The notes beneath the pieces were generated by a model. That model saw only the letters and a list, made by a program, of their open reading frames with translations, did no database searches and was not told the DNA's origin. A stretch of DNA of 64,000 nucleotides from Methylomarinovum tepidoasis (lineage in GTDB: Bacteria; Pseudomonadota; Gammaproteobacteria; Methylococcales; Methylothermaceae): positions 186,001 to 250,000 of the forward strand of contig NZ_AP024718.1 of the NCBI RefSeq assembly GCF_030294985.1, written 5' to 3'. The first letter of the stretch is position 1. Every line of letters begins with the position of its first letter. This document shows positions 1,165 to 3,860 of the stretch, one piece after another. The translations under genes were made by a program, and so were the position numbers.

Positions 1165-1701
1165 TCATTCCCGCACCGGACGCTTGTCAAGCTTGCGTTG
1201 TAGGGTGCGGCGGTGCATCCCCAGAGCGCGGGCGGCGGCGGAAATGTTGCCGCCGTGTTCCATCAGCACCTTCTGCAGATATTCCCACTCCATGCGTTTG
1301 ACCGACAGCGGCTTTTCCTTGATCTCCACACTGGGATCGCCGGATTCCTTGTACAGCGCAGCGACGATCTCGTCGGCATCCGCCGGCTTGGTCAGGTAAT
1401 GGACGGCACCCAGCTTGATGGCCTCCACCGCAGTGGCGATGCTGGCGTAGCCGGTAAGCATGACGATCCGGGTGTTGATGTCCAGCGCCTTGAGCTTCTG
1501 CACCAGGACCAGGCCGGAATCGTGGCCGATACGCAGGTCGATGACGGCGTATTCCGGCGTCAGGCGGGTCGCCTGGGCCAGCCCCTCCTCCAGGGTGCGG
1601 GCAACGATCACCTGGAAGCCGCGCTTGCCCAGGGCCCGTTCCAGCACCTCGCAGAACACCTCGTCGTCATCCACGAGCAACAGTCGCGGCAGGTCAGTCA
1701 T
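1165..1701 (-). CDS. regA: RegA/PrrA/ActR-type redox response regulator
   Basis: This 178-residue cytoplasmic transcription factor has an N-terminal receiver domain (acidic DDD at 11-13, phospho-acceptor D55 in VIDLR, K near 105). The C-terminal Fis-type helix-turn-helix reads NISAAARALGMHRRTLQRKL. Length and layout match the RegA/PrrA family, whose phosphorylated form binds imperfect GCGNC...GNCGC palindromes and controls electron-transport genes in response to quinone redox state. Its start overlaps the end of regB by 8 bases, so the two are co-translated. Two palindromes of the expected type lie upstream of regB (3062-3076 and 3229-3243), suggesting that this regulator acts locally. Confidence 0.92.
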   Translation of the reverse strand: MTDLPRLLLVDDDEVFCEVLERALGKRGFQVIVARTLEEGLAQATRLTPEYAVIDLRIGHDSGLVLVQKLKALDINTRIVMLTGYASIATAVEAIKLGAVHYLTKPADADEIVAALYKESGDPSVEIKEKPLSVKRMEWEYLQKVLMEHGGNISAAARALGMHRRTLQRKLDKRPVRE

Positions 1702-3022
1702 GGGAATCCTCCTCGACCGGCGTCAACAAAGGCAGGCGGATCCGGGTGCAGGTGCCCTGATCCGGCATGGGTTCCATCAGGATCTCGCCACCGAGGCGCT
1801 CGACCGTGGCATAGGCCAAAAACAGCCCGACCCCCAGACCGCGTTTCTTCGAGGCCACCGGCCGCCGCCCCAGCACCTCCCGCAGATCGGGGGTGATACC
1901 GGGGCCGCGGTCGATGATCGCCAAATCGAGCCAGGCGTGGTTCCAACGGGCCTGCAGCAGCACCGGCTCGGTCGAAACCTCGGCGGCGTTGTTGAGGATG
2001 TTCAGCAATGCATGGGTCAGCGTCTGCTCGGCGAGCAGCGCCGCCTTTTCGGGACCGCCTTCGAGCTGGAGTTTCAACCGGGCGCCGGGACGCTGCTGAC
2101 GCCATTGTCCCACCAGGTATTCGAGATACCGGCGCACCTGCTCCCGGTGGCCTCCTTCGGCGCGGGCGTGGCCGGCCGAGGCGGACATGACCGCCAGGGC
2201 GTTCTTGCAGCGTTCGATCTGGTCCTTGAAGATCAGCAACCGCTGGCGCAGGGACCGGTCTTCCGGGCGATCGTAGTCCTCCAACAACTCCTGCAGCAGG
2301 ATCGCCATGGTCCCCAGCGGGGTGCCCATCTCGTGGGCGGCGCCGGCCGCCAGGGTCCCCAAAGCGATGACCTGTTCGTCCCGCAGCGCCTGCTCGCGGA
2401 TCTCCGCCAGGCGCCGTTCCCGTTCCCGCAGGGTATTGGCCATCTCCACCACGAAATAGGCCACCAGCCCGGCGCTGAAGACGAACCCCACCCAGGTGCC
2501 GAAGGCGTGCAGCTCGAAACGCCGGCCCTCGATCTCCTCCGGCGGCAGCAGCCGGGTGTCCCTGACCTCCATCACCGGCAGCGACGGCAGCGGGTGGAAA
2601 TGGAAGATCAGCAGGGTATAGCAGCCGCAGGTCAGCAGCATCATCAACCAGGTGAACTGCTGGGGCAGGACCGTGGCGGTGATGATCAGCGGCAGAAGCA
2701 GAAACCAGGCCATGGGATTGGTGGCTCCGCCGGCGAAGTACAACAGGCCGGTGATGCCCATGGCGTCGAGACACAGATGGCCGAAAAGCTCCCACTCGGT
2801 CACCGGCCTTTCGTGCTGGAGACGGAACCAGGTCAGGCAGTTGAGCGCCACGGTCATGGCGATGATGCCCATGAGCGAATCGGTTTCCAGGGGGACGCCG
2901 ACACCGAAGAGGGTCACCAGAATGATGAGAAGCTCGGCGACGATCAGCAGATTGCGCAGCAGAAACAGGGAATGCAGGTTGCGGCGTGCGGCGTCGGCCG
3001 AATCAAGCGGCAGCTGAAACAT
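1694..3022 (-). CDS. regB: RegB/PrrB-type redox sensor histidine kinase
   Basis: This inner-membrane kinase of 442 residues has about six membrane segments in the first 195 residues and then a kinase core. Three family hallmarks are visible: the quinone-binding motif GGATNP at 98-103, the phospho-acceptor H230 in AAGAAHEMGTPLGT, and a cysteine in IERCKN (C272) at the place of the redox-active cysteine of RegB. The ATP-binding part shows IDRGPGITP and GLGVGLFLA. RegB autophosphorylates under reducing conditions and phosphorylates RegA, which follows it with an 8-base overlap. The start is ATG at 3022 with no strong ribosome-binding site. A RegA-box-like palindrome lies 40 bases upstream, allowing autoregulation. 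Confidence 0.93.
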   Translation of the reverse strand: MFQLPLDSADAARRNLHSLFLLRNLLIVAELLIILVTLFGVGVPLETDSLMGIIAMTVALNCLTWFRLQHERPVTEWELFGHLCLDAMGITGLLYFAGGATNPMAWFLLLPLIITATVLPQQFTWLMMLLTCGCYTLLIFHFHPLPSLPVMEVRDTRLLPPEEIEGRRFELHAFGTWVGFVFSAGLVAYFVVEMANTLRERERRLAEIREQALRDEQVIALGTLAAGAAHEMGTPLGTMAILLQELLEDYDRPEDRSLRQRLLIFKDQIERCKNALAVMSASAGHARAEGGHREQVRRYLEYLVGQWRQQRPGARLKLQLEGGPEKAALLAEQTLTHALLNILNNAAEVSTEPVLLQARWNHAWLDLAIIDRGPGITPDLREVLGRRPVASKKRGLGVGLFLAYATVERLGGEILMEPMPDQGTCTRIRLPLLTPVEEDSHD

Positions 3023-3061
3023 GACAGCGCTTTTGGTTCATAAAGATGAGAGGGCGGGGGT

Positions 3062-3076
3062 GCGACAATTTGTCAC
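3062..3076. promoter_or_regulatory. RegA-box-like palindrome 1
   Basis: GCGACAATTTGTCAC has 7-base arms with one mismatch around a central T. It agrees with the family consensus GCGNC-N5-GNCGC for RegA/PrrA. It lies 40 bases upstream of the divergent regB start, and 24 bases ahead of a -10-like TATCCT on the plus strand. The same 23-base block (one difference) recurs exactly 167 bases further on. Binding by RegA is inferred. Confidence 0.65.
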
Positions 3077-3100
3077 ATTCCCAAACCCGGCCATAACCAC

Positions 3101-3106
3101 TATCCT
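3101..3106 (+). promoter_or_regulatory. -10 element of putative small RNA 1
   Basis: TATCCT lies 24 bases after palindrome 1, at the same distance as TATGAT after palindrome 2. There is no good -35, which fits an activator-dependent promoter with the box centred about 44 bases before the start. It is weak on its own; the support comes from the parallel with the second copy. Confidence 0.45.
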
Positions 3107-3112
3107 TTAACT

Positions 3113-3211
3113 CGACGGTAATGCTCATTACCTCCTGTCTCGCTTGTCTCGGCAGACAGTCTATTTCCTCCTCTTGATGCAGGGAGCCTGCTCCCTGCAG
3201 ATTTCTTTTTT
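3113..3211 (+). ncRNA. Putative small RNA 1 (RegA-linked, about 99 nt)
   Basis: No credible protein is encoded here. A transcript starting about 7 bases after TATCCT would run to the T-tract of an intrinsic terminator. It carries two anti-Shine-Dalgarno-like CU-rich stretches: CCTCCT within 3131-3137 and TCCTCCTCT at 3166-3174. The second sits just before the terminator stem. Small RNA 2 has the same TCCTCCTCT in the same relative place. CU-rich single-stranded segments of this kind are typical of trans-acting RNAs that mask ribosome-binding sites. Start and function are inferred. Confidence 0.55.
3178..3211 (+). terminator. Intrinsic terminator of small RNA 1
   Basis: A 9-base-pair stem (3178-3186 with 3191-3199) and loop CCTG are followed by ATTTCTTTTTT. 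The T-tract is on the plus strand only, and no plus-strand protein gene lies upstream. This is the main reason to suspect a small transcript. Confidence 0.8.
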
Positions 3212-3228
3212 CCGGATGTGGTCTTCCT

Positions 3229-3243
3229 GCGACAATTTGTCGC
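3229..3243. promoter_or_regulatory. RegA-box-like palindrome 2
   Basis: GCGACAATTTGTCGC has perfect 7-base arms around a central T. It is embedded in a 23-base block shared with palindrome 1. Its centre lies about 44 bases before the predicted start of small RNA 2. RegA/PrrA binding is inferred from the consensus and from the adjacent regBA pair. Confidence 0.7.
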
Positions 3244-3264
3244 ATTCCCAACGACTTCATGGAT

Positions 3265-3273
3265 TGCTATGAT
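3265..3273 (+). promoter_or_regulatory. Extended -10 element of putative small RNA 2
   Basis: TGCTATGAT is an extended -10 (TGn plus TATGAT, one mismatch to TATAAT). It starts 21 bases after palindrome 2 and lacks a matching -35 at 17 bases, consistent with activation from the upstream box. Confidence 0.6.
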
Positions 3274-3279
3274 GCAATC

Positions 3280-3369
3280 GTGTTCGGTTATGACCGGACT
3301 TGCATTGCATGACAGTAGTGCGATACTCCTCCTCTTTGACAGCAGGGCGTTTCACCCTGCTGTTTTTTT
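3280..3369 (+). ncRNA. Putative small RNA 2 (RegA-linked, about 90 nt)
   Basis: The interval from the extended -10 to the terminator T-tract is about 90 bases and has no credible reading frame. TCCTCCTCT at 3327-3335 precedes the terminator stem, matching the same motif in small RNA 1. The rest of the two RNAs differs, so they would be paralogues that share promoter and seed but have diverged bodies. Function is unknown. The 5' end is predicted only from the -10. Confidence 0.55.
3339..3369 (+). terminator. Intrinsic terminator of small RNA 2
   Basis: A perfect 9-base-pair stem (ACAGCAGGG 3339-3347 with CCCTGCTGT 3355-3363) has a 7-base loop and is followed by seven T. It is plus-strand oriented and ends 6 bases before the stop codon of the minus-strand gene at 3375. 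Confidence 0.85.
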
Positions 3370-3374
3370 ATGCC

Positions 3375-3860
3375 TCAGTCTCGGCCGCGCAGGGCCCGCA
3401 GCCCTACCCGGGCGCAGGCTACGTCCAGCATCGCCCCTGGCGCCCCGCCGACACCGATGGCACCGACCACTTCCTTGTCTTCCCTGATCGGCAGGCCGCC
3501 GCCGAGCAGCAGAATTTTCTCGTTCATGGCTCCAAGCGCCTGGATCTTGGGATTCTTGGCCACCCGCTCCACCAGCTCGTGGGTGGGATGGCGCAGGGTC
3601 AAGGCGGTATAGGCCTTGCGCCAGCTGCTGTCGATGGTATGGGGTCCGGCCTGCTCGTCCCGCAGCAGCGCCAGCAAGTTTCCGTGACGGTCCACCACCG
3701 CCACCGACACGGCATAGCCTTTGCCCCGGCAGGCGCGCTGCGCCGCCTGGGCGGCCTTCTGCGCGCCTTCCAGGGTGATGCTTTTCTGTTCGACGGTCTC
3801 AACTGCCTGAACGTTCACGAAAAACGCCACGCCCAACAGCCCCAGCAAACATTTCTTCAT
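3375..3860 (-). CDS. HbpS/GlcG-family heme-binding-like exported protein
   Basis: The 161 residues begin with a Sec signal peptide (KKCLLGLLGVAFFVNVQA, cleavage near 19), so the protein is probably periplasmic. The body is one HbpS/GlcG domain (formerly DUF336), with the family pattern AVVDRHGNLLALLRDE, GGGLPIREDKEVVGAIGVGGA and a conserved-looking C-terminal cysteine region. Members bind heme or small ligands, or appear next to glycolate and diol metabolism genes. The ligand here cannot be told from sequence. It overlaps the upstream class II aldolase gene by four bases (ATGA), so the two are translationally coupled. Confidence 0.8.
   Translation of the reverse strand: MKKCLLGLLGVAFFVNVQAVETVEQKSITLEGAQKAAQAAQRACRGKGYAVSVAVVDRHGNLLALLRDEQAGPHTIDSSWRKAYTALTLRHPTHELVERVAKNPKIQALGAMNEKILLLGGGLPIREDKEVVGAIGVGGAPGAMLDVACARVGLRALRGRD

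Follow-up and report, generated by a model that had tools for sequence, protein, structure and literature searches.

Two putative small RNA genes beside a regBA-type locus

The window, by which we mean the whole 64 kb stretch of DNA analysed here, comes from a methane-oxidising bacterium of the family Methylothermaceae (order Methylococcales). It contains a gap (positions 3023-3374) between a divergent regB-type sensor kinase gene and a convergent HbpS-like gene (Table 1). The best NCBIfam families of the regB-type and regA-type products are ActS/PrrB/RegB and ActR/PrrA/RegA (NF033792, NF033791), with 212 bits against a cut-off of 350 and 190 bits against a cut-off of 250, respectively; since both scores are below the curated equivalog cut-offs, we refer to the proteins as RegB/RegA-type. 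The RegB-type protein has a GGATNP stretch and a cysteine (C272) that is invariant in the alignment, and the C-terminal helix-turn-helix of the RegA-type protein matches the PrrA effector domain 1umq.

The plus strand of the gap carries two units in a row, each consisting of a palindrome, a -10 element, two hairpins, an unpaired TCCTCCTCT element and an intrinsic terminator. Directly after the two units we found no plus-strand protein gene, as an earlier note on this DNA had stated; further along, the plus strand carries first a tRNA (4576) and then a gene (4751) that by eye we take for trigger factor.

Table 1 Features of the regBA-type locus and of the two putative small RNA units (positions within the window).
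Feature	Position	Strand	Remarks
regA-type response regulator gene	1165..1701	-	best NCBIfam family ActR/PrrA/RegA
regB-type sensor kinase gene	1694..3022	-	divergent to the sRNAs; best NCBIfam family ActS/PrrB/RegB
RegA-type box 1	3061..3077	+	TGCGACAATTTGTCACA; upstream of sRNA1; about 40 nt from the regB start (other strand)
-10 of sRNA1	3101..3106	+	TATCCT; exactly +40 from box 1 start
sRNA1	3113..3210	+	start inferred from -10; folds used 3108-3210; conserved in 7 genomes
Putative anti-Shine-Dalgarno element of sRNA1	3166..3174	+	TCCTCCTCT; unpaired in fold
Intrinsic terminator of sRNA1	3178..3211	+	stem 3178-3199, T-rich tail
RegA-type box 2	3228..3244	+	perfect palindrome TGCGACAATTTGTCGCA; upstream of sRNA2
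-10 of sRNA2	3268..3273	+	TATGAT, extended by TGC just before; exactly +40 from box 2 start
sRNA2	3280..3369	+	start inferred from -10; hairpin 2 through terminator nearly unchanged in 7 genomes
Putative anti-Shine-Dalgarno element of sRNA2	3327..3335	+	TCCTCCTCT; inside CTCCTCCTCTTTG 3326-3338; unpaired in fold
Intrinsic terminator of sRNA2	3338..3369	+	stem 3338-3364, T-rich tail
HbpS-like gene	3375-3860	-	convergent to the sRNA units

The palindromes are part of a repeat that occurs twice, 167 nt apart, as the earlier note had described; its length is 24 nt rather than the 23 given there (3061-3084 and 3228-3251, 96% identical). The pattern TGCGACAATTTGTC(A/G)CA with up to three mismatches is confined to these two places in the window, where it gives four matches over both strands, compared to a mean of 0.17 and a maximum of 2 in shuffled sequences. 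Across the whole genome, TGCGACANNNTGTCRCA has two forward matches and one reverse match, all due to the two boxes, the reverse one because box 2 is a perfect palindrome; a reversed control pattern has one match in each direction. Both -10 elements are located exactly 40 nt from the first base of the palindrome, so that the claimed identity of this distance holds, as does the common order of palindrome, -10, CU motif and terminator.

Both RNAs fold into two 5' hairpins, the unpaired CU element and the terminator, with z-scores of -3.9 (sRNA1) and -5.0 (sRNA2), and none of 200 shuffled sequences folds as well. Terminator-like sites amount to three in 1.7 kb, with a mean of 1.2 in shuffles; on the plus strand one follows each -10 element, and the CU sequence lies just ahead of each stem, both as previously noted. 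The statement that the remainder of the two intervals differs was too strong, since 63 of 104 aligned columns are identical between the transcripts, a score above that of all 300 shuffles. The locus thus holds adjacent, similar putative RNAs with an unpaired anti-Shine-Dalgarno sequence, as known for the sibling sRNAs of the NmsR type.

Conservation within the genus

RegB was found in seven of the ten genomes of the genus, and all seven have both sRNA units, with TANNNT at exactly +40 for all of the 14 boxes; the box/-10 spacing, whose conservation in relatives the earlier note had made a point to check, is therefore retained. The part of sRNA2 that runs from hairpin 2 through the terminator hardly varies across the seven genomes, which explains why no covariation is visible (0 pairs changed on both sides among 7 copies). 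For sRNA1, only the terminator was recovered in the consensus fold within the genus.

An RNA model of the seven sRNA2 copies (R1), which finds these seven by construction, had matches in 14 of the 201 genomes of the order, i.e. the training copies and seven weak matches elsewhere (E 4e-4 to 0.009). The weak matches adjoin regB in five genomes (L046, L049-L052), and two of the genomes with a weak match, belonging to family f3, hold box-driven tandem RNAs. R1 gave no match in the three genus genomes without RegB (G004, G008, G009). We considered this apparent co-loss of sRNAs and RegB as evidence and dropped it, since the gene neighbourhood is possibly unsequenced: the neighbouring gene is at a contig edge in G004 and absent too in G008 and G009, so the absence of the units may reflect missing sequence.

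Two more RNA-like loci with CTCCTCCTCTTTG occur in the genus, represented in the genome of the window (G000) by G000:C1:1994253 (minus strand; L105) and G000:C1:1469291 (plus strand; L097), with further copies in L081-L084, L086, L088-L094, L096 and L099. One type ends in a GGCGACC..GGTCGC terminator; the other has the element between CAGGG and CCCTG, and its copy in G000 closely follows a 5S rRNA gene. In several genomes the two stand in tandem. No exact RegA box was present in the stretches examined at these two loci.

Box-driven relatives at regB across the Methylococcales

For the order-wide comparison the best 80 named regB loci were kept, of which the 76 with at least 300 nt of upstream sequence were examined. 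Allowing up to 2 substitutions, we found a box divergent to regB and no more than 600 nt from it at 51 of these 76 loci and none over that distance at the other 25, whereas 200 scrambled boxes occurred at a mean of 0.2 and a maximum of 8 of the same loci. TANNNT was located at exactly +40 for 50 of 60 boxes (some of which overlap), compared to 0-3 of 60 at the other offsets between 30 and 45; the values at offsets 46 and 51 (25 and 26 of 60) are due to the conserved start TAACCTAACTT of the Methylomonadaceae RNA. By a simple rule, a terminator-like hairpin follows 47 of the 60 boxes. The regB loci are related, many being from Methylobacter, and the counts therefore do not represent independent events. 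In family f3 and in the second Methylocaldum unit the -10 element is one base closer to the box.

Family f4 is taken here as Methylococcaceae, f8 as Methylomonadaceae, and genus g12 is presumed to be Methylomonas. The Methylococcaceae layout is hairpin, hairpin, CCTCCT element, terminator, and the Methylomonadaceae element reads CTTCCTAA, ACTCCTAA or CCTCCCTAA; an unpaired CU element preceding the terminator thus recurs across families. Since RNAalifold yielded little on alignments A2 and A4 (A4 and A6 are poorly aligned in loops), a structure was drawn by hand for 15 of the 31 extracted Methylomonadaceae RNAs, picked for alignability. In these 15 RNAs nine cells are changed on both sides, and the covariation score was reached by none of 500 shuffles; four pairs show a change on both sides, a number reached by 45 of the 500.

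Tandem units are also present in Methylocaldum (L110), in G010 (same sequence as L156), in G011 and G018, and further in G013 (same sequence as L120), G093 and G139. The tandem arrangement, which beside regBA was new to the author of the earlier note, is not peculiar to this genome; at least four other lineages have it as well. With both units in every RegB-bearing genome of the genus and box-driven relatives across the Methylococcales, the comparison proposed in that note favours its central claim, two putative sRNA genes with RegA-type promoters beside regBA. The pair in the window is most likely the Methylothermaceae version of an RNA group tied to RegBA throughout the order.

In family f6 (L009, L016), a box is followed by an RNA-like stretch with CCTCC; in L016 there is a terminator-like hairpin as well, and another box, oriented divergently, stands ahead of an open frame.

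The box and the RNA form a unit that persists away from regB

A second model (R2) was built from the 15 Methylomonadaceae RNAs; its alignment starts after the -10 element, so that the box is not built in. R2 has 90 matches in 87 of the 201 genomes of the order, all in family f8, which comprises 127 of the 201. We examined 28 loci holding 30 of the 90 matches, mainly chosen away from regB and none of them a training locus. All 30 matches have a box (up to 2 substitutions) upstream of the RNA, starting at 47 nt (29 matches) or 48 nt (one match), and in at least 21 of the 28 loci regB is not a neighbour, being on another contig or at a distance of 5 kb or more. From this we conclude that box and RNA are a unit that outlives separation from regB. 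Together with the genus and the named regB loci, these matches place a RegA-type site at a fixed position of the promoter.

Exact boxes were found in 138 of the 191 genomes of the order with a RegB match, compared to 2 of the 10 without (Fisher p 0.001), a co-occurrence that partly reflects linkage, as box and regB are neighbours in some genomes; the two box-bearing genomes without RegB are 70 and 73% complete. Class-wide, the extended box pattern occurs in 38 of 369 genomes, with 48 sites compared to 2 for the reversed control. At 6 of 29 loci outside the order, in other gammaproteobacteria, the box is divergent to regB, with TANNNT at +40 in all six. By eye, at least five of these six continue into the start of an open frame, and none has the sRNA layout. 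The slot opposite regB thus appears to be a RegA-box promoter more widely, which the Methylococcales often fill with sRNAs. Outside the sRNA-bearing families, a box precedes a gene encoding ...YVGLCC(G/A)KCGGNMPMN... in L143, L246 and L259, at regB in L143 and L259.

Proposed mechanism and predicted targets

We read the two units as tandem sibling genes for RegA-activated, trans-acting sRNAs of about 90-100 nt that would block translation initiation, a reading to which we assign, from sequence comparison, a probability of about 0.7. Its gene anatomy, conservation, box/-10 geometry and association with regB are supported by comparison. Weighing on the other side are the 25 boxless loci among the 76 at regB, the nil covariation within the genus, the other boxes of the presumed Methylomonas and the outcome of the target searches described below. 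We infer that the genes are transcribed, that RegA binds the boxes and activates rather than represses, and that the RNAs reach their targets by anti-Shine-Dalgarno action. RegB would sense a reduced state of the cell, i.e. excess reductant, leading to phosphorylated RegA. RegA~P would then bind the palindrome, centred near -44 in place of a -35 box, and activate each sRNA promoter. Each sRNA, ended by its intrinsic terminator, would expose an unpaired CUCCUCCU just before the terminator, which would probably pair with purine-rich Shine-Dalgarno sequences and so block the translation of a group of mRNAs.

Complementary ribosome-binding sites are present: AGAGGAGG-N2-9-ATG has 26 sites in the genome of the window, compared to 6 for the reversed-pattern control. 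They include a multicopper-oxidase gene, a hemerythrin and, by eye, three copies of a transposase-like gene. The multicopper-oxidase gene lies in the window itself at about 27.6 kb (G000:C1:213595, L188), and the CU element is complementary to its ribosome site AGAGGAGG; from its Pfam Cu-oxidase domains we take it, by eye, for nirK. Across the genus, AGAGGAGGAG-N2-9-ATG has 21 sites in 9 of 10 genomes (control 9), recurring in four genomes at an hrcA-like gene, in three at that of a small periplasmic protein, and in two each at those of a membrane protein and a cupredoxin-like protein, all named by eye; the match at the hrcA-like gene overlaps what we presume to be its heat-shock operator. Strong complementary sites are also found in G004 and G008, which have no RegB match, and we therefore claim no target. 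The CU element, which had been put forward as a seed for target prediction, thus did not single out a distinguishable target set. A feedback on regA was considered and dropped, since its ribosome site GAGGAGGA is not conserved (present in G000, G001 and G002, not in G003, G006 and G007; the pattern missed G005).

That the target searches singled out no mRNA would also be compatible with sRNAs that act otherwise than by Shine-Dalgarno pairing, e.g. by protein binding, or that encode a short peptide, and a conserved ATG opening MTVV is present in sRNA2 of the seven genus genomes. We regard this as unlikely, since an unpaired CU element before the terminator is precisely the feature that recurs across families. 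As to the peptide, the MTVV frame is interrupted by a shift within the element in L007, and beyond the element it varies from genome to genome; sRNA1 has no conserved ATG; a peptide encoded in sRNA2 was accordingly dropped.

Probable assignment of the box to RegA

The RegA/PrrA consensus is quoted in PMC5435760 as (C/T)(G/C)CGG(C/G)-N0-10-G(T/A)C(G/A)(C/A), and the box of the window fits it except for one letter in the first half-site. According to the portion of PMC4263372 drawn on here, the published consensus is degenerate and PrrA ChIP-seq gave no strong motif. The palindrome could on these grounds belong to another regulator, the regB neighbourhood being a coincidence of descent. Boxes in the presumed Methylomonas, where 24 loci from 12 genomes were examined for other boxes, might be taken to point the same way: they precede a TonB-dependent receptor gene or stand at a different promoter type, and the feo operon, whose promoter is the only one known to us with published RegA ChIP in a methanotroph (PMC13274454), was not recognised among the 24 loci (more sites exist than were examined). 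We nevertheless consider another regulator quite improbable, since the half-sites fit the RegA/PrrA consensus, the box is divergent to regB outside the order too, and exact boxes are rarer in genomes without RegB, though partly by linkage.

Among the presumed Methylomonas loci, L344, L351 and L356 have a TonB-dependent receptor gene (one checked with Pfam) that is preceded by a box at 84-87 nt, which recalls the RegA-iron link of strain DH-1. In L335, L337, L340, L343, L349, L358 and L025, box-like palindromes are followed by the CTTTTT(C/T)TGGACA-type -35 and TAGAAT-type -10 of a putative transcript, with no Rfam match at threshold. An Rfam and plasmid search with the Methylomonas box regions found nothing.

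It is very unlikely that the boxes are operators for regBA autoregulation and the plus-strand RNAs incidental. Box 1 does lie close to the regB start, and boxes are divergent to regB in other orders too. But the first box of a locus is found at anything from 25 to 299 nt from regB, with the plus-strand -10 constantly at 40; box and RNA stay together at loci away from regB, and an RNA with a terminator of its own follows box 2 as well as the other second boxes.

Relation to known small RNAs

No Rfam family reached its gathering threshold in the gap of the window. sRNA2 aligns to the whole RF02869 (ncS025) model with 27.1 bits against a gathering threshold of 46, and other weak matches (ylbH, rli48, asX2, Trp_leader and others), all below thresholds, were not used. 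The CcsR RNAs of Rhodobacter are presumably related to the alpha-r14/NfeR1 family. For PcrZ, we know of no link to an order-wide regB neighbourhood.

The Burkholderia CU-rich sRNAs ncS25/RF02869 share two hairpins, an unpaired CU stretch and a terminator with the RNAs of the window, from which they differ in that the part of PMC5688073 consulted mentions no RegA box. NmsRA/NmsRB of Neisseria are likewise tandem siblings with anti-Shine-Dalgarno sequences, likened here by description and not by sequence; as far as the excerpted text of PMC5362039 goes, they switch central metabolism, and their levels depend on RelA, not on RegBA. NfeR1/alpha-r14 is an anti-Shine-Dalgarno sRNA tied to a two-component system, NtrBC, as the present RNAs are to RegBA; it is described in the sections of PMC10746234 used here as having three hairpins, each with CCUCCUCCC, and as repressed by NtrC. 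The RNAs of the window have instead a RegA box and one unpaired UCCUCCUCU each, before the terminator, and hence lack the three hairpins with unpaired CCUCCUCCC by which alpha-r14/CcsR RNAs are recognised in that source. PcrZ of Rhodobacter sphaeroides, mentioned in PMC4263372 and named in the earlier note as PrrA-controlled, is an sRNA in the PrrA/RegA network, as we propose for the present RNAs; it concerns photosynthesis genes, and the likeness involves no comparison of sequence or layout.

Our literature search, with most subscription journals outside its reach, found no sRNAs at regBA in methanotrophs. We thus class the RNAs as a new family within a known kind; its distinguishing marks are the RegA-box unit, the order-wide RegBA link and the repeated tandem duplication, the nearest systems having been compared partly by description.

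Implications for redox control in methanotrophs

Changes in oxygen and reductant oblige methanotrophs to readjust the balance of methane oxidation and respiration, and our literature search found no regulatory RNA for such an adjustment in these bacteria. In Methylomonas sp. DH-1, a 2026 study reports in the portion available that RegA is needed on methanol, that ChIP shows its enrichment at the feo promoter, and that it affects the iron uptake genes tbdr and tonB, which fall in the regA deletion, without appreciable binding, the intermediates being left open (PMC13274454). The words sRNA, small RNA and motif are absent from the text of that paper. The box-driven sRNAs are candidates for these intermediates, which makes the question testable; given the decrease of tbdr and tonB in the deletion, an effect of the sRNAs would have to be activating or pass via a repressor. 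In addition, the fixed box/-10 geometry defines a RegA site for testing more sharply than does the degenerate consensus now employed.

At somewhat less than even odds, we tentatively propose that the Methylococcales possess an old mixed protein-RNA redox switch, in which the most conserved output of RegA would be an anti-Shine-Dalgarno sRNA that repeatedly underwent tandem duplication. The two exact boxes, the only ones in the genome studied here, would both drive such RNAs, and these RNAs may be the missing intermediates to those methanotroph genes that RegA does not bind.
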